NCBI GenBank assembly: GCA_000310025.1
Contig: FN648527.1
Coordinates: 113,282 to 177,281, forward strand
Source of the DNA: Ectocarpus siliculosus
Taxonomy: Eukaryota > Sar > Phaeophyceae > Ectocarpales > Ectocarpaceae
Length of the DNA stretch: 64,000 nt
Reading direction: 5' to 3'
The position numbers and the translations under genes are program-made. The notes beneath the pieces are model-generated. The model was given only the letters and a program-made list of their open reading frames with translations, did no database searches and had not been told where the DNA came from. Below, piece by piece: positions 11,171 through 51,451 of this stretch (its first letter is position 1; every line of letters begins with the position of its first letter).

Positions 11171-11905
11171 AGATGGATGAAGGCTGCAGTATTTTTGAAT
11201 CAACACGAAAAAAAAACTTTGGTTAAACAACACAACAACACCCGAAGGAACTGCCCGCGCTCGCAACCTTTCCTCCCCTGCTCGAGGTCGAAGAGGTATT
11301 GGGCAGCAAGTGTATAAGCCAGAGCCACTGATGGCGCAGCAACGATACAAAGGGCTGTAGTAGCGCCGGCCGTACAGCCTGTGCGCCGTGGTGCAAATGT
11401 TGGTGATGACGAAAGGAAGTCCGAAATCGATGGATTAATGAAGCAATATTTTCCAATCACCACGAAAAAAAAAGTTGTTTGCAGCAACACGGCATCCAAA
11501 AGGAACTGCCCGCGCTCGCAAACTTTCTTTCCCCGCACGTGGTCAAAGAGGTACTACGCAGCAAGGGTATGGGCCAGAGCTACTAATGACACAGCAACGA
11601 TATCAAGAGCTGCAGCAGCGCCGGCGGTAGCCTTTGCGCCGTGACGCAAAATGTTAGCCATGACGAAAGAAACGAAGAAACAGATGGATGAAGGCAGCCA
11701 TATTCTTTATTCAACACGCAAAAAAAATTTGTTTGACAAACACAACATCCACAAGGAACTGCCCACGCTCGCAACCTTTCCTCCCCTGCACGAGGTCGAA
11801 GATGCAATGCGCAGCAAGTGTAGAATCCAGAGCTACTGATAACGCAGCAACGACAGAAAGGACTGCAGTATCGCCGGCGGTACAGCCTTTGCGCCGTGGC
11901 GCAAA
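11171..11905 (+). repeat. Three tandem copies, about 255 bp each
   Basis: Copies start near 11171, 11428 and 11681. Each has 'gatgga.gaag', an A-run after 'caacacgaaaaa', 'aaggaactgcccgcgctcgca', 'tttcctcccctgc' and 'gcgccg.cggta.agcctttgcgccg'. They lie between the two convergent transposase relics and may be the subterminal part of that element. Confidence 0.85.
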
Positions 11906-12053
11906 AATCAATTCACCGAAAAAAGGCAGCAGCAGCAGCAGCAACAGCTGAAAAAAGAACACACGCACGAAAAACAACTTTACCCTCTCACACATTATCT
12001 CTGGTGCTCCGGCCACCACCGCGCTTGCTTTGTCTCCAGCCCCACCCACGAAC

Positions 12054-20059: not shown

Positions 20060-20545
20060 CCGCGATGACAACACAGCCGTGCATGTCCTGGCTCGATTGG
20101 TGCCTTGTGGGCGAAGATACAGACGAGGGGGTGTTTAGAGACAAATTCCCCCTGGGGGGCAGGGTGGGGCAGCGTATATTTGTTTTCCCATCAGCCATGG
20201 CTGCACCAAACCTGCGCCGTGTTGGCTGTTCTGTGGGCCTCGCGATAGCCCCACATCGCAGCAGCACAGCCGTGCATGTCTTGGCTCGATTGGTGCCTTG
20301 TGGCAGAGGTACAGGCGGGGGGGTATTGAGACATTATTCCCCCCCCGGGGGGCAGGTTGGGGCAACATATTATATGTATTTTGCCCATCACCCATGGATG
20401 CACCAAACGTGCACCGTTTCCCCTGTACGATGTCTCTCGCGATAGCCCCCACATCACAGCAGCACAGCCGTGCATGTCCTGGCTGGATTGGTGCCTTGCG
20501 GGCGGATATATAGACGGGGGGGTAATTAGACACTACCCCCCCCCG
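20060..20545 (-). repeat. Three unit C copies in reverse orientation
   Basis: Copies end near 20160, 20345 and 20545. Each has 'tgtcctggctcgattggtgc' (or a near match), 'cttgtgggcg.agatacagac' and a G-run, with CCCCCGGGG-type palindromes between copies. Confidence 0.85.
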
Positions 20546-20589
20546 GGGCGGGGTTCAGATACGCCGTTTATTTTGTTTTTGTACTAACA

Positions 20590-25160: not shown

Positions 25161-25162
25161 TA

Positions 25163-25187
25163 CCGTAGGTTGCATAAGATATCACAC
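25163..25187 (+). repeat. Left TIR of the pogo-type element
   Basis: 25-bp terminal inverted repeat, 24/25 identical to the right end. The variant base is T here and C at the right end. Confidence 0.93.
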
Positions 25188-25405
25188 TTTCATTAGATAC
25201 CACACCCCCTCAGAAAACGTACACAATACCACACCCGTGTGCTATTTTTTTCAGCCCCCCAAAAAACGTCATTTTATCACACGGTGACATAAGATACCAC
25301 ACCCCCTGAAGTTGGGCCGCATTAAATCGACGGAGCCCCTGCTTATCACACGGTGTGACAACGTGAGGACAGAGATCACGACCACACCACCTGCTCGCAA
25401 GAGCC

Positions 25406-28400
25406 ATGGAGGCGGACAATGTCGTGGAGGGTGGTGCAGTTAGGAACCCTGCTGAAAGCCCCGCGGCTCAGACTGCAGTGGGTAAGACTCCAGCGGCGGC
25501 CCCACGCTCCATAGCGTCCTACTTTCCACCCGCCCCGGGGGAACGTGGGGCTGCTCGGACGACTCCCTCAGCAGCCGCACATGACACCGCACGTACTGCT
25601 GAGGCCCGCTCAAAAGAATCTACTGCTACTGAGACTCCCACAGCACCGGCTGCGCCTGCCACCGCGGGTGCCGCCGAAACCTGCGAAGCAGAACCTACTG
25701 CTGAGAATCCCGCAGCACCCACACCCACACCCGAAAAGGCAGCTCTCCCGCCAACCACCAACACCCTGAGCGCGGCTACTGCTGAGAATCCTGCAGCAGC
25801 ACCGCGCTGCGGAGAACCATCGTGCACCAACAAGCCCTTGTGGGCAGAGCCAGGGAAGGATATGCCGGAGTTTTGCGGCAGGCATGCGAAGTCTGGCGAC
25901 GTCTACATCAAAATAAGGTGTGCGCAGAGCGTCTTGCAGTTTGCAGCACATGGGTGTTTGTGAGGATTCTCATGGCTCAAGCAAACCAAAGAACATGCCA
26001 CGCCTGATTGCCTGATCGATAACCAGATCGAAAAATAATGTGATTTTGACGTCGTGTCGTCGCGCTCGCCTCACTGCACATTGGCATGTACACACTACAT
26101 TTACATGTAGTTCATATATTCTGGTGTGGGCGAAATGTTTACTGGATTGTTTTTGTCACACACACGACACGTTTCCGCATACCGTTTTTTGTGTTTGTGA
26201 TGTTTCGGTAGGAAGACTGCGAAACCCATACCCAACACGTGCAAATATGTACACATAACCTCGACAGCAGTTCGTGCCTGTTTGTGTGAGATACGAAATA
26301 GGTGCCGTCAGCTGCTCACCCTCTGTACCTTGCATGCGTGGACGCCATGACTCTCAACCTGGTGGCCGTTGTCAGAGCTATCCGCTAGCCATCGTATTTT
26401 TGGTACGTTTGCCTGATGGTCGTTGGAGCGAGCGCATTGTTACAGATACTGCACTTAACGACACGTATGCTACATGTTTTGTTGCTTCCTCGAACTCATG
26501 CGCTTTTCAGGAACGTGCACCTGCCTGAAGCACCGACGACAGCAGCCGCAACGGCGCCCGTCGGTGACGCCATGTTTCCTGGAGAGTCAGAGGAGTGGAC
26601 AGATGGTTTCGGTGGGCGTCTCGACGGCACGCCGGCCGAGGGCAAGGGCAAGGGCAAGAGGAAAAGAGAGCCGCTGGAATTGGAGCCACCAAACTTCCCC
26701 ATTAAGTTTGGTGGTGGCCAGAAACGCAAGCGGTACGATTTGGAATTCAAAGTAAACGCCATTAAGTACGCGACCATGCAAAGCCCGGGGGCGCAGGGGC
26801 CTAATGGAACCATCGGTGTGTCGTATGCGCAACGAGTGCTTGGGATTCCCGAGAAGATCACACTCTCTGAGTGGATAAAAGACAGAACAAAGTACGAGAA
26901 GCAGCTGGAACAGGCAGACCAGCTCGGGGCCAAACGGAAGAAAAAAGCCCGGAGCGTGAAGTCGTTCAACACGGGGAGGGTTAGGTCAAACGCTGAGGCC
27001 GAGCTCGAACTTCTCGACTGGATCAACGATGTTCGTTCGGAAGCCATCTCTGCCCGCGTCTCTACAAGGATGATCAAGAACAAGGCGGTATCGCTCAACT
27101 CGCTTTGGTTCGGCCCGAGGCCTGCAGCGAACGACCTGGAGGGCAGTAGAAAGTACCGCAACAAGCAGACTCACTGGTGCAGGAGGTTCCTTAGGAAGAA
27201 CCGGTTGTCATTCCGGGCGGTTACCAGGCAAGGCCAGAAACTCCCTTCCGGGTGGCCTGCGATTGCCATGAAAGCCGTCAAGGAATGGAGGGCGCTTCGT
27301 CACGGAGGAATCGACGGTGGGGGAGGACGGAGCATGGGGGGGGCAACGAGCAGTGCGCCTTCGAAGCCACCTCTGTTGTTCAAGGAGGAGCAGAGCTACA
27401 GCATGGATGAAACTGCTGTGTGGATGGAGCCCGCTGGCACGTCGACCGTGGCGGTGAGTTCAATAGTGTTGCTTCGAGTCATGTGCCTGTCTGGTCGTTT
27501 CTTGGCATTCCGTGCAAACAGTGGGCATTGTGATGCAATATTTCTTGCCGTACCTACTCAGTGTCCAGCCAGTAAGGCTAGACGACGTTGGTGTTGTGCT
27601 TATGCCGGGTTAGAAGTTTCTTACCATTCGCATCCATCATCGCTGTACTGCAAAACCCATACGTTACTTTGTGCGTGAAGAGCTGTCATTCTCATCTACA
27701 AAATCGACCTTTTTCGTCGCCTCTGCTTTCTCTATTGTTTTTTGCTTCTTATTTTTGTCGTTCGCAGCACACCGGTCAGAAAGAGGTGGCCATCAAAACC
27801 GGTGGAAAGGAAAAGTTGCGGATCACTGCCGTGCTTGCAGCAAACATGAAGGGCGGCAAACTCCCGCCGCTGCTCATCTTCAAGGGTAAGCCTACGGCGC
27901 CGGGCAAAACCCCCGCTGCCAACAGCATCGAACGAGAGTTCAAGGTGGGCAAGGACAAGAAGGGGGTAGTATACCCTCAGAGCGTTGTGTACGCCGTGGA
28001 CGACAAGGCGTGGCACACGCAGCGCGTCTTCAGAGATGTTTGGCTCCCCCAAGTGTGGAACCGGCGCCCGGGTCGCGAGGGGGTCCTGGGCAACTACCGT
28101 CAGCCGGACACGCTGCTATCGTGGGACGATTACACCGTGCACAAGACAGCCCTGTGCAAGGAAGCGATGGATAAGTCCAACACGACGCTGTTTTTTGTCC
28201 CCGGAGGCCTAACGCCCAAGATCCAGCCTTGCGATGGACTTATCAACAAGCTGTTCAAGTCCAACATTTCCAGGCTCTACGATGACCACATGGCCTCCAC
28301 CGACGCCGTGCGCAACGACCGCGGCTACCCGGATCCCCCATCGAGGGGATTGCTCGCGCAGTGGGTGAAGAAAGCGTGGGATGAAGTGGACCCTGAGAGC

Positions 28401-28703
28401 ATCCGTTCGAGCTGGAGGAAGGCTGGCATGACCCTTGCCTTCGATGGATCTGAGGACGAGGCGTGGGCCAACAAGGAGCTCAACTCCGACGCCCAAGGGA
28501 AACCACTTCGTGCAGACGGCGATGCGGCCGCTGCCGGCGTGGAGGAGGCTGGCCCATCGGAGGAGGGGGAGACGATGGCCGACTTGTTGGAGGTGTTGGA
28601 AATCGACGACGATGACAGCTCGGGAGATGGCGAAGGCAACGATGACTCGGAGGTTGAGGTCATGGCAGACTTGCCGGGGGCGGACGTTGTTTGCATAGAC
28701 TGA
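25406..28703 (+). CDS. EsV-1-7/pogo-type DDD transposase fusion, three exons
   Basis: Exons 25406-25917, 26511-27453 and 27768-28703. Introns are GT-AG (phases 2 and 0), and splicing gives an uninterrupted 796-residue frame. Residues 35-40 (SIASYF) resemble a PCNA-binding PIP box, followed by an Ala/Pro/Thr-rich linker. C135, C140, C157 and H160 make a perfect C-X4-C-X16-C-X2-H EsV-1-7 motif. A basic stretch (~215-245) leads to a psq-like helix-turn-helix (~243-300, '[15 protein letters not shown]', 'SEWIK') and a CENP-B-type HTH (~330-405, '[20 protein letters not shown]'). The DDE_1 core follows with D470 (SMDETAVW), D605 (LLSWDD) and D641 (QPCD), spacing DD35D. The C-terminus is acidic ([11 protein letters not shown]). 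Role: nuclear cut-and-paste transposition of this element. The EsV-1-7 exon is joined by splicing, so alternative products are possible. Confidence 0.88.
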
Positions 28704-29164
28704 GGTGTCTTGTCTGGTATCTACCTACCGTAGTTGCATGCCATGGTCAAGTCAACCAAAGCTGCTATTCGAGCCAATTTGTCCTGGGTTTCATATGTTT
28801 CGGTAGTCGCTTGTCCTCTTGGTTTCTAGCTTTGGTTGATACGTAGCTGGCACTTGCTTGCGTCCTATGTGGTTCCAGCTTGAGTGTTGGATGCAAGTCT
28901 TGCAAGTGGTTGCGTCGTCCAGGTACCTGTGTGCTGTCGTTTTGTCGCACACAACACCGGCACAACCGCTCTGAGGTGTCGGTTCTACGTCTTCGTTGTG
29001 TACCTATGCGAAGAATTTCCAAAGGATACTGCGAAAATGCACGTGGGAAAGCATTTACGTGATGGAGTGGTGTGAGCCATCCTAGCTATCACACCTGTTT
29101 ACACCCCTTGACGCCCTTTGTACGTGGGTGCCTCCTGTAAGCGCACCGCATCACTCGAGCGACA

Positions 29165-29460
29165 TTATTATCACACCCCCGTAGGTAGGGTCTTGTGGGC
29201 GCACTGCAACCACACGGGCGACATTATCACACCCCCGTCAGGCCGGGTCCTGTGAGCGCGTATCATCACACGGGCGAAGTTATCACACCCCCTTGTTATC
29301 ACACCCCCTGTAAGCCGGGTCCTGTGAGCGCGCTTCATCACACGGGCGACGGTATCACACCCCCTTGTTATCACACCCCCTGTTGGTGAGACTCTGTGAG
29401 TACACTTTGTCACACGGGTGACATAAGATATCACACCCCCTACAGAATACCACACCCGTG
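29165..29460 (+). repeat. Subterminal repeats of the pogo-type element
   Basis: Five to six copies of 'tatcacaccccc' alternate with 'gggtcctgtgagcgcg' and 'tcacacgggcga', with a ~55-70 bp period. The same words occur at the left end (25180-25310). Arrays like this often bind the transposase. Confidence 0.8.
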
Positions 29461-29497
29461 TGATAACTTTCGTCCTCCCGAAAATGTTATCACACGG

Positions 29498-29522
29498 GTG
29501 TGGTATCTTATGCAACCTACGG
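29498..29522 (-). repeat. Right TIR of the pogo-type element
   Basis: 25-bp terminal inverted repeat followed by TA. Confidence 0.93.
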
Positions 29523-29524
29523 TA

Positions 29525-36765: not shown

Positions 36766-37259
36766 GCCTGCATGCGATATGGCGCTACATGTAGGTATAG
36801 GCGGCCGCCCGCCGATGAGCGGGACGGCCACCTGGAGGCATTTTTTTTGCCATTGTGTGATTAGCCGTACATTGGCCGAGACGGACACGGCGGTCACGAA
36901 ATATGCGAGAAGGTCGTGTTTATTTTGTTTAATTTAGTACGGAACAATTACTTTGTTTGGCGTATTTAATTTTGCAACAAATACTTCGGCAACCCTAAAT
37001 AAAATGTCGGCACCATCGCACTTGGAAAATAAGAGAATGACGCACGCTTAACCCTGTGGCGTCTTCGGCCGGTCTGAGATTGATCATTTTTCCATTTTTT
37101 TTCTAAGGCGCTGAACAGACGGTCTATGAATAGTCGTGTAGTGGAGGATGGAAAAAAAAAACGAACCCGCACGCAAAGGAGTTGTACCGCACAGCATGCT
37201 AGCGAGGGCACGCCACACACACGCCACGCATACACCACGAGGGGGTGCGCCGAGAGCTC
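36766..37259. other. Spacer before the piggyBac-type gene
   Basis: AT-rich, with a GGCGGCCGCCCGCC palindromic patch near 36800 and a TTAA at ~36967. TTAA is the piggyBac target site, but I could not match it with a right-hand partner. Confidence 0.4.
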
Positions 37260-37868
37260 ATGGGGAAGCATCTACGCCCCGCGTGGTCTGCCCTTCTAGG
37301 GGGGGCGGCGCTGTTGGTAGCGCTTGCGGTTGCGCTACCAGCAGCGCCAGTTGGCATTCCTGCTTCTACATTGGCGCCCGTGTCCCGCGTGCAGCAGTCC
37401 ACACTTGCTTTGTACCCTGGCATGGAGGACAGCGCGGCTGACATCGACCCAAATGAGGCTAGCGATGATGGGGATTCAGACGACGAGTTTGATCTAGTCC
37501 CCAAGTCCCAAGCGCGGTATGCTGTAAACTCGCACAACGCTGGTCTCAACACGAGGGGGGCAGCTCGGCACCATCAACAACAGCGGCAGCAGCATCCCAC
37601 CCCGGCATCACCGGCCACACCGCCGGCTCGGACGACCACGCGTGAGCCGCGACAACCGATGATTCTGTGGATAGCCGAGTCGAAGCGGCAAGCGCGTGAG
37701 GCTGCAGAGCGGGAGCAGCAGCAGCGGGAGCAGCAGCAGCAGCAACCATCACCGGAGCCTGCTCCAGCCAAGAGCTCAAACTCGCAAGACGTTGGGCGGC
37801 ATGAACAACAACGGACCCCGGCACGATCGTTGACGGAGCTGCTCCGGACAACGTCGCGTGAGCCGCAA

Positions 37869-37915
<47 letters not shown>

Positions 37916-38294
37916 GCAGCAACAACAGCAGCAACAACAGCAGCAACAGCAACCGCCCCCACCGGATCCTTCTCCGGCCACCAAGTCCGTCTGCGGCGCT
38001 ATCATTAGCCGCGGCCCACGGGCTGAGCAAAAGTGCGGCAACAAGGATGGAGGTAGGACACCAGGGTTTTGCAAGCACCATGATGGACAACAGCAGCGCC
38101 GCAAAACGGCCTCCGGTGCAGCCGTTGGAGTGGGGGACAGCGTCCAGGCAGGGAATCATGACTCGGAGGCGGGGGTGGGTGGTGGCGTGGACGAACTGCA
38201 GACTCCTGGTGCGCATCCTATCATAGCGAAGTCCAGGGAACTGCACTACGCGCAGGCCGGGAAAATCCAGGACATTGGATTCAGGGCAGCGTAG
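37260..38294 (+). CDS. Poly-Gln, Cys/His-motif protein; likely first exon of the piggyBac gene
   Basis: The frame opens with ATG at 37260, and another ATG at 37422 starts MEDSAADIDPNEASDDGDSD. The acidic start is typical of piggyBac-type transposase N-termini. A Pro/Thr-rich part follows, then two Gln tracts, the longer from uninterrupted CAG/CAA codons (37869-37955). A C-X13-C-X11-C-X2-H motif comes next (VCGAI...KCGNKDGG...GFCKHH), a looser relative of the EsV-1-7 pattern. A GTGGGT donor in phase 0 at 38175 would join it to the exon at 38736, whose phase also is 0; that link is inferred. If unspliced it ends at 38292-38294. The Gln tract is likely length-variable. Confidence 0.55.
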
Positions 38295-38735: not shown

Positions 38736-41700
38736 GCTGGTGATCCACCTCTCCGTCCCATGCCGGATGATGCCAAAGGTTGGGTGTTGGAGGGACTACC
38801 CCGGGACGAGTCATCCGACCCGTACAAGAGACGGCACAAACACCCCGGCGGCAACAAGTTCAGCCTATCGGACCAGCTGAAGACGAGTCTACCGAAGGTC
38901 GACAGGAAGGGTGGGGGTCTCCCATTCATGTTCTTCGAGAACACTTTCCCGAAGGAGGCGCAGGACGCCGTCCTTGAGGAGGTGAGGAAAACCAAGGTCG
39001 TGCTTTGTGTCTTTCAAAAATATTCTGCGAGTTAGGGCATACCCCCCCCCCCACACACACACAAACAACAAAAGAGTGGTGTTCAAGTCGTGGAATGGTG
39101 TTCATCATGCCACGCGGTAGGAGGACGCGTATATCGGCCACCACGCGCACTTTAGCATAAGCGCGGACTGTATAACGACGGACAGTGTCCACGAAGCATT
39201 CGGCACTTCGAATTTCACTTCGAACTGTTTGTGAGGGCCATGGGTTTATCGTTATATGTTGAGACGTGCAGGAGCCTTGCTTAGAAGGCCGTGGGGGGGA
39301 AAGGGCCTTCGTGAAACACGATGGGCCTAGGATCCACCAGGTGTCAGAGTCGACAAGAGAAAACATGCATGCATACGTCAAAGGTAGGCAGCGAAGACGC
39401 GTGAAAGTAGTTCTAGCATCGCACTCGCCAAAAACAATTACCATCATCAGCGAAAATGTTAATCACACCATGCACATTGCACGGGACCCGCCGGAGTCAT
39501 GTATGCCTTTATGGCTACCTGAAACCAGGAGCTGTGTTTTCGAAGGGACGCTGTGCACCACCAACTATCTTCACGATGTTGTGCTACGCTTCCTCCAGGC
39601 TGGCTGACTTTTTGTTGTGCCAAATTGTTTTTCACAGATCCCTCTTGTGTCCCGCCCCTTCCCGCCGTTATATCCCGCCCTCTTTTCAGAAGCACGGGTA
39701 CGTCAACTTCTGCGCCGACGAGTCTGACCCGCCCCTTGAACACCAAGAAGATCGGAACCGGGCGAAAAAGGTGACGCGTGGCTTTCAGACGTTGCCGTAC
39801 AAGGACCTGGCGCATGGATCTCGAGAGTACGGCTTCGAGCGCAAGCACCTGTACGGTGTGATGGGTATCCTGATCACCGCGGGAATCACCCAGAAGCGGT
39901 GGATCACCGATCACTGGGGACTGGAAGCCCATGACAACTACCCCCTGGTCCGTATTTGCATGCCTCGAGACCTGTTTGTCCTGTTCTACGGCCGCTTCTT
40001 CCACTTGGCCCCGGCCACCGGCAAGGTGAACAAGGACGATCCCCAGTACGACTGCCAACACCACATTAGGTATGCCCGACAACGTATACGTTTTGGGTCC
40101 CTCGATGTGCTGCCTGCTCCGCCCCTTCAGCACAACGGCCTAAGATATGTATTCCCGAAACGTGAGAAACAACTAATTATGTACTAGAGGAAACGTCTCA
40201 ATAAGAAAACAGAGGAGGGACCCCTAAAATAGAATACTCTACTATTCATCAGACACGAGAGGTTGCGGGGGGGGAGTGTGTGTGTCGAACAATAAAACTA
40301 AGAAAGATACACCAAGCAAACTGCTTTTCTCTCTCTCTTCCCCCTCTCCCATGTGCTACCCATCCCCTCATATGAAGTGCATGAAAACGGACCCCTCAGG
40401 CCCGCGGGCGGCTGCTTTGACACAAATTGTGTGTCGTTGTCGGAGCGTGAAGCGCCCATAGCGACGCCGGCCCAAAATACGCCGGGTAGCTCGGCAGATG
40501 CTGTCTTCCGACGGTATAATGTTTTCCGGCAAAACAAGTGTGCCGTCCGTCAGACCGTGTACGATGACTCGTTCGGATGTGACCACAATAAATATCTCCT
40601 ACTCTCGGCAGGAAGCTGGAGGACGTGTTAAACAAGTGCTGGAGCGAGCTTGTGGAACCGGGCGCATGCCTATCGTACGACGAGCAGATGGTTAAGAGCA
40701 CGGCGAGAGTGATGTTCGCGCTCATGAGGTTCAACGAGGCGAAGCCTATCAAGCACGGTGAGGTTGAAAGTGAAAACCCGAGTAGATCGTGGGGGGGGGG
40801 GGCGGGGGCGTTAGTCCTTGTGTCTGATGTCGGTCGCATCATCGGTTCCCACACCGTTGCATGTAAACATTGCATGTTCGCCTTTTTTTTTTTTTTTGGT
40901 GTACAACTATGAGGGTGGTATTGTAGAACATATTGTGCGGAGTCGAGAACCCTTTGCACTCCGAACCCTCACTTCGTGCAAAGGGTATGATCACACCACG
41001 TTGTATTGAAATTGTCAAGCACCCTCGATATAGTTACACAGTGCTGCTGTCTCTAGGAGTTGAAGAACCAGAATTTTGTTTTTCCATTCGCACTTTCCTC
41101 CAAACGGACGTAAGCAAGCACAGTACGCCAAACACTAAATGGTAACATTGAACTATTTACAGATTCCTGCGGGTGTGTCAAACAAAAGCTGAAGTGCATC
41201 GCGTGTGTCAACTTTGACATATTATACAGCGCGGGAGTAATGGCGACAGCTCACGTGCCCGTTTTCTTTTTTGTTGTTGTTCTTCGTCGGCTCCCGCCCA
41301 GGAATCAAATGCTGGCTATTTGCTGCCCTTCCGGCTACTGCTTCGTCCAGAGCATCGACGGCGGGTTCAGCAGCGACACCAAGCTGAGGCCATATGCGAG
41401 TTGCCCCCTTGGGCGGTCGGCACACACGGTGGTGTACGTCCTACTCGAGGCATGCGAGACTTTCTCCAACAAGATCACCGGCAAGGGTAATACGGTAGGT
41501 ATGGACAAGTTTTCACCGGAGCCCTCCTGCATCGCTACGCGCGACATTTTCGCCGTCGGGACTCTACGCGGGAACCGCATCGGAGTGGAGCTCGCCAACT
41601 ACCTCTGGGCAAAGGAGGGCATGACGGGGACGGAGCGTGGGCAAATGCTGACGGCCCGCTTGGACGAGCTCGTGATCGTCAAGTGGATAGACTCCCAGGA

Positions 41701-48800: not shown

Positions 48801-51451
48801 GCATAACATATGAGGTTTCCGCCACGCATAAAACCACGAATTCCCTGGAAGAGTTGGTTATTAACTTGAAGAACAGCCACGACGACACGGAGAGTCAGAG
48901 ACTACTACCCGTATCCTCTGACCGTAATCTTCGAGTCTTTGATAGATTTTTGGGATTAGCAACTGACACGAGTTTAATGTGAAGAAAAACAACAACAACA
49001 ACAACAATCTTTAGAAAATCTTACTACATAGCATACGTAACTTGTGAAGAAATGGTTATTCACATGAAGAACAAATAACCACCAGGAAGTCATGATGATG
49101 GAGTACACTCGTATTCATCTTTACAAAATCTTACTACATAGCATACGTAACTTGTGAAGAAATGGTTATTCACATGAAGAACAAATAACCACCAGGAAGT
49201 CATGATGATGGAGTACACTCGTATGCATAACTAGGTACTTGTGTGAAGAATGGTTAGAACGGGCCGTATCATCTGAGACCATAATATTTACCATCTTACT
49301 ACAGCATATGCACGCGTGACTAGGCACTTGTATGAAGAAATGGTTTTTCACACATATCAGGACAAATAACCGCCAGGAAGTCACTATGGAGTATCAGACT
49401 TGAACTCGTATCCTCTGACTAATATATTTACCGTACAATGTATGACATGGATATGCAACTAAGTACACTTTGTGAAAAAAAGGTTACTCACGCGAAGAAC
49501 GAACAACCGCCAGGAAGTCGTCACGACATGAAGCATCAGATTTGCAACCGCTCACCCTTCGGGTCCTGCGTTTCGAACCGCCCAGCGGGTCGAAGTCCTC
49601 GTCATCTTCGCCACCCGCCGTTGAATTGGGAGCTCGCCTCCTTTGCAGCGGTGCCGAAGTTGCCTGCCCATTGTCGTCTACAGTAGTGAAGTTCTTCCAC
49701 CGTACTTCCCCCGGCGGCGGCGCCCCGACTTGGGCTGGCCCCGCCGCTGGGTTCAGTTGCCGGTCGGCGTTCCCTTTGTTTTTCGGACAGTCGAAGAAAC
49801 GCTCTTGCTTCTGCTTGCAAAGCAAGCAGTGTCCAGAAACGCAAACCGCCTTGTGGGCATCCTCCAGCGTTCCGTCTTCGGAACAGTACAGTTGCTCCTT
49901 GGGGCACATGAGCATGTCGCTAAAGTCAGCCATGCTGTGGACGGCTTTGCTGGAGCCATACGGAAGGTATTCCGCGCATCCACCATCCTTACACAGTTCA
50001 CACTCGCAGTCACACTTTGATCCCGGGGTTGAGCCTTGATGAAGGGTCGGCCACAGGTCACACAGCCCTTTCGTGACGAGCTTCGCCTTGTAGCAGTGTA
50101 CACAGATGCAGGACCTCAGGGACTGCTCCACCACGTAGAAGGGGATGATCTTGTCAAACGATGGCCGACTGATGCTGGGTACCTCGACCTTTTCCGCAGC
50201 GAACTACAAAAGGAAGGGGCAAGCAATAGGCAATATGCAAGGTACGCAACATTATTAGTGTGAGCTGTCACTAGGAGTGTGGCGTCACGTGTAAGGAGGT
50301 GAGATATAAGATGAAGTGACTCATTCCTGCTGCCATTCGCTATGACACCCCCGCGCCTCGCCGTTACAAGTAGCATATTTTGGTTATCAGAATGATGGAG
50401 CTTATCCAAATTGTCTTGTCAGGCTATTGTACATGCATGCATTCGGGTGCATGTCTCACCGCTTGGTCTAAGTCCTTCATGACTGTCTGATAGAGCTGCA
50501 GCTTCGTCCCCATCAAATAGCGCACAGACTCGGTCTTGCACCGCGCAGGATAGACGCAGACCAACGAGTTGTCCGCTTCTGAGCGCCTGTGGTTTCCAGT
50601 GTCGTAATCGTGCTCCGTCTTCACCAGGCAAGGAGAGGGCTGAGTGTGGAAAATGATTCTCTCGACAATCCAGGCCAAAGCCTTGGGGCAGCTGACCTCC
50701 AGCCGATCCGATCGCAACTTCCTGTCCGATATCCTGTACACGTAGGGGACGATTCACGAAAACAAAGGATTGGTGAACAGGAAGGGGTATGATGGTTTTG
50801 GGTTGTTGTTACATAACAAAGCGCCAGCACATCCGGTGGGGGGGCTTCACATGCAGGCCATAACACCAACACGCTTCTTTCTCTCAGGGAAGAACAAGAG
50901 CAAAGTTGTTTTAGGGATATCTCTATTGTAGGGACACGTACAGGTCGTGAAGGATGCTCGTGGTGTCCGTGGCATCTCGCCGTATCTGGGCCTCGTTGAA
51001 CGCACGATGGCTCAGGCTGCCTCCGACAAACTCGTGAACCTCCTTGTAGGTGGTGTTAGGGCCACAAAGCGCGCCCAGCAGCACCCTCCGAAACTGCCAT
51101 CCCTCGGAGCTCGCAACCGTTTCACTCGATGAGAGTCTTTTCCACAACGCGCGAATGTTGTCCCGGATGGCCTCGTTTCCCCTCTCCTTGTGCTTCCTGC
51201 TGCTGCTGGCCAAGTCCTCCATGAAAGCTGTTAAGTCCTTGTTGGCTAGGAGGGCGTCGACTGTGGCGTCCTCGACGGCGACTGGTTCAAAGTTCTTGTT
51301 TAGTCTCTCAGTCCAGGCAGCACAAGCGTCTTGGAGAGAGTTGACGAAGACGCTTACGTTGTGGTCAAGGACCTTCTTCATTCTCGACCTGGATGCATCC
51401 TGGGGGGTCAGGCGGAGCTTCTTCGCGGCCGACGAATGCCGTGGCGTGGCC
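45888..51451 (-). CDS. RNase H-like transposase of an undercharacterised class, at least six exons
   Basis: Minus-strand exons: A 51451-50942, B 50733-50460, C 50203-49492, D ~48460-47514, E ~47206-46968, F 46797-45888. Junctions A-B, B-C and E-F keep phase exactly; C-D and D-E do not, so a small exon or damage is missing there. The upstream start is not found. Exon C is Cys-rich (CICVHC, CDCECELC, CLLCKQK..FFDC), a likely zinc domain. Exon D carries an RNase H-like core: VLCIVDFQERLQ, QDEVQSQHW, CTIWTDNCAKQFKCRF and CHGKNVSDAEGG (Asp near 48301 and 48034, Asp/Glu near 47881). Uncharacterised animal proteins have D(F)AENY..QDEIQS.HW, SDG..SQFKN and HGK...DG.GG in this order. Exon F (303 codons) is unfamiliar and ends EVVPTTAV. 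I infer a DNA transposase; no TIRs were found. Confidence 0.6.
48845..49440. repeat. Minisatellite copied from an exon/intron border
   Basis: 'gaagaaatggttattcacat' then 'gaagaacaaataaccaccag' then 'gaagtc' recurs near 49045 and 49155 (110-bp period, identical over ~100 bases). It recurs more loosely near 48855, 49239 and 49333. The unit matches 49473-49530, where exon C of the flanking gene meets its intron, including the 3' end of the coding exon. Confidence 0.85.

Follow-up and report, generated by a model that had tools for sequence, protein, structure and literature searches.

A pogo-type transposase of Ectocarpus with an EsV-1-7 motif and a recurrent PIP-like peptide in its first exon

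A pogo-type transposase and an EsV-1-7 motif are indeed fused here, as had already been published for Ectocarpus in 2025 (PMC12477816). What we add to the printed account is that three sister transposases, all those read upstream, have first exons with an I-x-S-F-F peptide and the same splice phase, and no EsV-1-7 module. These findings place the first exon with the transposase group, and the EsV-1-7 module with one side of it. The element lies within a 64,000-nucleotide stretch of Ectocarpus siliculosus contig FN648527.1 (the window), and its features are collected in Table 1.

Table 1. Features of the transposon, in positions of the window
Feature	Position	Strand	Evidence or remark
Left TA target-site duplication	25161..25162	.	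Adjoins terminal repeat; copy identity begins at 25161 or a few bases away
Whole transposon, 4,360 bp	25163..29522	+	Terminal inverted repeats; 18 further near-full-length copies
Left terminal inverted repeat, 25 nt	25163..25187	+	Inverted-repeat match
Exon 1: start Met, low-complexity tail, PIP-like peptide, EsV-1-7 module	25406..25917	+	In-frame join
PIP-like peptide SIASYF, residues 35-40	25508..25525	+	
EsV-1-7 cysteine-rich motif, residues 135-168	25808..25909	+	Pfam PF19114, E 5.7e-8
Intron 1, phase 2, GT..AG	25918..26510	+	Phase same in three sister elements
Exon 2: putative DNA-binding half and first catalytic Asp	26511..27453	+	
Weak Tc5/CENP-B-like HTH, residues 332-406	26992..27216	+	PF03221, 15.5 bits, cut-off 22.2
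Catalytic Asp 470 (putative)	27406..27408	+	
Intron 2, GT..AG	27454..27767	+	
Exon 3: DDE_1 catalytic core (residues 501-701) and acidic tail	27768..28703	+	Pfam PF03184, E 8.5e-19
Catalytic Asp 605 (putative)	28125..28127	+	
Catalytic Asp 641 (putative)	28233..28235	+	35 residues from Asp 605
Subterminal tandem repeats with TATCACACCCCC and CACACGGG words	29168..29422	.	
Right terminal inverted repeat	29498..29522	-	
Right TA target-site duplication	29523..29524	.	Adjoins terminal repeat

Identity of the element

We are confident that this is an autonomous pogo-type DNA transposon of the Tc1/mariner group, most likely the published TcMar-2, and that confidence covers its anatomy as well as its identity. 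TcMar-2_Ec32 of Ectocarpus sp. 7 is described as a 4.4-kb autonomous Mariner-Tc1 element with an N-terminal EsV-1-7 domain, and has a 217-bp MITE partner (PMC12477816, Genome Biol. 2025, 26:320). The window element resembles it in every one of these respects, and is filed in that family because size, N-terminal EsV-1-7 and MITE agree; the two are matched by description and not by comparison of their sequences. In the main text of that paper 'pogo' and 'PCNA' have 0 occurrences each, and the available passages of PMC12993054 contain no EsV-1-7/transposase fusion.

The two ends of the element form an inverted match of 30 nt at 97% identity once the flanking ATGTA is counted. The 21-mer end word TACCGTAGGTTGCATAAGATA has 91 exact occurrences in the genome, compared with 0 for a reversed-pattern control. 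A genome-wide search with this word found two pairs lying 221 and 222 bp apart, TA included. Read out, the first pair delimits a 217-bp element with ends identical to those of the window transposon, which with TA on both sides matches the size of the published 217-bp MITE. TA-type duplications next to terminal inverted repeats, as in the pogo group, are present in the window and at both ends of 15 of the 18 other copies (exact repeat match). The exceptions are L031, which has GT on its right end, and L034 and L036, each with one end unmatched. No match to Rfam was found within the window.

The transposase gene

The gene has three exons, bordered by GT..AG, which together make a single open frame for a transposase of 796 residues, so that the predicted joining of the first exon to the transposase exons in exact phase holds. 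Splicing is deduced from the open frame, from the splice sites kept in the copies and from the gene models of relatives. The splice dinucleotides are intact in all 18 extracted sequences, window included, and a donor is also visible in the first-exon extraction of L036, which is outside that set. The frame of exon 1 continues beyond the donor and, counted from the start Met, comprises 185 residues (25406-25963 of the window, + strand). Were intron 1 retained, a 185-residue protein would result, with the PIP-like peptide and the EsV-1-7 motif and without the catalytic core.

The match to Pfam DDE_1 bears out the predicted catalytic core, and D470, D605 and D641 are likely to form a pogo-like DD35D triad, the spacing depending on the putative assignment of the aspartates. 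Spacings of DD29-59D are reported across pogo families; nearly all Fot/Fot-like and Passer elements have DD35D, and ranges overlap elsewhere, in the part of the source available (PMC7386202). Exon 3 has a dN/dS of 0.23 against three sister elements. A search of solved structures with this exon returned nothing meaningful (2 rows, best E 0.25). From family knowledge and the sequence, the spliced transposase would excise the element and reinsert it at TA using the DD35D core.

Transposases of the pogo group typically have an N-terminal HTH of the psq/CENP-B type, and HTHs of this kind had been predicted here. The sole HTH model found in the window transposase is HTH_Tnp_Tc5, below its threshold, and the psq and CENP-B models are absent from the Pfam output. 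The same model scores 21.1 bits in the sister element on C43, likewise under the 22.2 cut-off. These profiles weakly suggest an HTH of the Tc5/CENP-B-like kind, and the psq/CENP-B assignment is weaker than the original prediction had it.

Copies in the genome

Copies were counted in the window's own genome (189.5 Mb, 492 contigs). Exon 3 as query gave 30 rows, window included, and 20 of these places were examined with their flanks: 18 are near full length besides the window, and two are partial (L049, L050). The all-round layout of the window element recurs in the 18, some of which bear insertions or an inverted stretch. With exon 1 as query there were 18 full-length matches, again including the window, among 46 rows.

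The entire frame is open in three of 18 translated sequences (the window, L034 and L039), and L043 and L044 stay open for 786 of their roughly 800 residues. The module of L034 carries W146R and H160R despite its open frame, and therefore an open frame can accompany a lost ligand. Sixteen first exons were extracted, nine without a stop and seven with one (L032, L033, L037, L038, L040, L041, L045). L038, L040, L041 and L045 have one frameshift in common, and the module of L046 has identical gaps.

Between recent copies pN/pS is 0.88-1.11 in four regions, so these copies say little about function. It is 0.54 in residues 172-241 and undefined in residues 471-485, where there are zero synonymous changes. 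The values for exon 1 and the PIP-like peptide (0.88 and 0.95) are spoiled by L037, which has an inverted stretch in exon 1, and that of the module (0.35) comes from 5 nonsynonymous and 4 synonymous changes, which are too few.

Older copies with internal deletions (L056 at C10:2325400-2326900, L069 and L070) are 84-91% identical and retain exon 1 as far as the middle of the EsV-1-7 motif, with breakpoints about 10 bases or less from one another. Decayed relatives of the window family are found on C9 (83-84% DNA identity in the main matches) and C63 (83-90%). No exon 1 was present in the 2.2 kb (C9) and 3.9 kb (C63) read upstream. Both look truncated, because similarity begins inside intron 1 and the left end was not found.

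Sister elements have the first exon and lack the module

Seven further places in the genome (C10, C43, C6, C76, C1, C75 and C23) have 65-68% protein identity to the window transposase in the longest exon-3 match. Searching proteins with the spliced product found six relatives, all from Ectocarpus CCAP 1310/34, the best being 66% identical; a database search with the exon-1 protein gave three matches, all ENA. In a tree that has no outgroup, contains 4 of the 19 window-family copies and has 4 of 13 inner branches well supported, the seven sister places and P0002-P0005 of CCAP 1310/34 are separated from the window family by a branch with support 100/100. P0001, also from CCAP 1310/34, lies beside the window family, and its model begins inside exon 2.

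We read upstream of three of the seven sisters (C10, C43 and C75), and all three have a first exon with the peptide ITSFF. It ends in a phase-2 donor, and the acceptor preserves the frame. Neither an EsV-1-7 module nor a visible trace of one is present in these three first exons, nor in P0004, which reads KEITSFF and then leaves the frame after exon 1. The three sisters and P0004 resemble the window element in having a corresponding first exon and a related core, and differ from it in the absence of the module; in the three sisters the intron phase is also the same. Upstream of the first exon there is left-end-like sequence in C10 and C43, while C75 matched inner pieces only. The first exons of window and sisters are 26-28% identical (E 3e-6 to 9e-6 without the low-complexity filter), and because this likeness is weak their correspondence rests on place, phase and peptide taken together. 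Under the original prediction, a consistent lack of the first exon in sister elements would have spoken against its being part of the transposase. All three read upstream possess one, without the module, and hence the PIP-like peptide looks more widespread and the module lineage-specific.

Gene models of CCAP 1310/34 contain the junction too. In P0002 the sister exon 1 runs into exon 2 at the identical position (EERSK-AGSTPG), and the N-terminus of this model is chimeric, with a weak reverse-transcriptase match. P0006 reads through a similar junction, joining a similar tail. From the search with the exon-1 protein, P0009 runs into apparent terminal repeats and looks like a deletion derivative. 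Separately, there is a second pogo-like family in the genome (C423, L071).

These results bear on whether exon 1 could instead be an independent EsV-1-7 gene, or a remnant, unjoined to the transposase. It could make a protein of its own, because its frame runs past the donor to 185 residues, and the sequence read at C9 and C63 is without exon 1. Against this, exon 1 lies inside the terminal repeats, at one and the same position across the near-full-length copies; intron 1 is where C9 and C63 appear to be cut off; and the three sisters have a corresponding first exon of the same phase, which P0002 joins to exon 2. We therefore consider a separate gene very unlikely, and treat exon 1 as part of the transposase.

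The EsV-1-7 module

The EsV-1-7 domain is best known from algal developmental regulators and from an algal virus. As predicted, the module has the motif C-X4-C-X16-C-X2-H, with C135, C140, C157 and H160, and a profile check places it in the EsV_1_7_cys family (PF19114), where it scores 32.9 bits against a curated cut-off of 25. It retains the positions conserved in other genomic motifs (C, G, P, EFC, H and G). The CX4CX16CX2H motif and the conserved C, G, P, EFC and H are common to EsV-1-7 domain proteins such as IMMEDIATE UPRIGHT; unlike these, the window has one divergent motif fused to a transposase. Judged by sequence, the positions of putative metal ligands are present, and metal binding is a hypothesis even for the EsV-1-7 family. 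A search of solved structures with the module returned nothing meaningful (2 rows, best E 0.39). An AlphaFold model made with 19 sequences reached a pLDDT of 81.6 once and 48-58 in four cases, with a pTM of 0.46; it was unreliable, and we have not used it.

At least 150 EsV-1-7 motifs in the genome exceed the Pfam cut-off (of 880 candidates, 150 were given a score and every one of these passes), and among the matches listed many sit in arrays. We aligned 16 of these other motifs, drawn from 12 places (eight by similarity to the module, four from the Pfam-scored list, near the top of each), and the module is 31-46% identical to them. With family copies, fragments and L055 set aside, none of the matches listed is more than 50% identical. 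By its sequence, the module of the transposon is one solitary and divergent motif, at a distance from the genomic motifs it was compared with.

L055 (C43:269200-273000) is a decayed first exon whose module is 69% identical, with the second Cys read as Arg. Between window and L055 dN/dS is 0.37 in the module (25.7 synonymous sites only) and 0.45 across the remainder of exon 1, and therefore the contrast is slight. In another motif, L059 (C24:907474-907584), the words CGEP and AEPG are common with the transposon module, and identity overall is 38%; from its sequence it is a possible relative of the module's donor.

Origin of the module

It had been proposed that transposons were a route by which EsV-1-7 spread. 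This is not supported; the divergence of the module from the 16 motifs, and the failure to find a relative of the catalytic exon in one scan of viral contigs, speak against it. Capture from the host genome fits better: the host has many EsV-1-7 motifs, and one of them would have been acquired at the 3' end of exon 1.

A stronger form of the earlier proposal would have transposons or viruses ferrying EsV-1-7 modules between genomes, with the window element as a vehicle. The module does sit on a mobile element, and EsV-1-7 genes are patchily distributed and occur in viruses, according to the part of the source available (PMC7457493). Against it, the module lies far from the genomic motifs in the comparison, and one scan of viral contigs with the catalytic exon found four stretches that fit a pattern, none of them confirmed as a relative. 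Moreover, no DDE_1 place lies less than 10 kb from an EsV-1-7 place among the matches listed, as judged by eye with family copies and L055 aside; L055 itself has a sister core some 6 kb away, on the opposite strand. We consider a role as vehicle very unlikely.

The module might instead have been ancestral to both lineages and lost in the sisters. The fossil L055, strongly divergent from the window family, already has the module, and a tree without an outgroup displays merely two sides of one branch. The three sister first exons and P0004 bear no visible trace of the module. In the rest of exon 1, dS between window and L055 is 1.04, compared with 2.2-2.3 between window and C43 or C75 (C10 being saturated), and because L055 is closer to the window than these sisters are it could lie on the module-bearing side. 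We regard ancestral presence followed by loss as unlikely, if far from negligible, and prefer capture on the window side.

The PIP-like peptide

SIASFF is found in 14 of 18 readable copies and SIASYF in four, window included; L037 was excluded for its inverted stretch. Ten first exons were aligned, a chosen set with two from one family and L056 left out. Position 36 is Ile in 9/10, Ser is kept in 9/10, position 39 is Phe in 9/10 (Tyr in the window), and position 40 is Phe in 10/10. Twenty-five columns of this alignment reach 8/10, and many of the others are Ala, Thr or Pro, in low-complexity sequence. The decayed L056 reads KASFF at the peptide, and in L055 the motif is lost.

The consensus of the PIP box is Qxx[ILM]xx[FY][FY], in the parts of the two sources available (PMC5371812, PMC4103810). 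Its hydrophobic residue and two aromatics are present in the aligned first exons. The Gln is absent in 10/10, and the nine that retain Ile have P, A or L in its place. In shuffled sequences [ILMV]xx[FY][FY] arises in 0.5% (window) and 0.2% (C43), for a pattern picked after the peptide had been seen. The original prediction likened SIASYF to a PCNA box. That likeness gains from the recurrence of the peptide as I-x-S-F-F in sisters that lack EsV-1-7, and is weakened by the missing Gln. There is thus some support for the peptide as a recurrent feature of the first exons, and from its sequence it is a putative PCNA box only.

In Drosophila the PIP box of pogo transposase sits near the C-terminus. 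That transposase and the window's both have a pogo-type catalytic core and an I-x-x-aromatic-aromatic PIP-like peptide; unlike that of Drosophila pogo, the window peptide is N-terminal and without Gln. From what was available of the sources, Drosophila pogo transposase is a PCNA interactor whose PIP box is conserved in Tigger and Lemi1, its relevance being called unclear (PMC5371812), and a pogo-ligase hybrid peptide has been used as a PCNA ligand (PMC4103810). By analogy with Drosophila pogo, the window peptide may dock on PCNA. No published report of a PIP-like peptide in a brown-algal transposase was found in the literature listings. The present case adds one more lineage with such a peptide on a pogo-type transposase, and bears on whether transposition is tied to replication.

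Function of the first exon

The first exon adds to the transposase a low-complexity tail with two modules, I-x-S-F-F, common to the sisters, and EsV-1-7, on the window side only. The EsV-1-7 motif might act as an extra nuclear tether through contact with chromatin, DNA or protein, a reading that we put forward tentatively and at less than even confidence. A wider proposal, which we think distinctly improbable, is that the first exon is a docking platform: an old PCNA-docking peptide in both lineages, joined in one of them by a captured EsV-1-7 finger that tethers to host chromatin. Such a platform without the core, arising from deleted copies or, at 185 residues, from retention of intron 1, could repress.

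The module might also be decorative, hitch-hiking without function in transposition. Copies have proliferated although their module or exon 1 is broken, L034 lost the His with its frame still open, and the module's dN/dS against L055 is near that of the rest of exon 1. Yet broken copies can be mobilised in trans, and the value of 0.37 was obtained even though L055 is a decayed fossil. We judge a decorative module unlikely, with an appreciable chance of being right. The function of the EsV-1-7 motif can be tested compactly on this transposase, because it is a single motif on a protein whose activity can be measured, and nature offers relatives without it for comparison.

Elsewhere in the window

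An open frame at 37203-38294 (+) encodes a polyglutamine stretch and the Cys/His motif CGAIISRGPRAEQKCGNKDGGRTPGFCKHH, with sub-threshold matches only, to DUF5763 and MAP7. Another at 39417-40187 (+), of 256 codons, appears piggyBac-like by eye and has no Pfam match at E 0.01. Tandem repeats with periods of 253, 193 and 110 lie at 11171-11906, 20072-20548 and 49007-49228, respectively.
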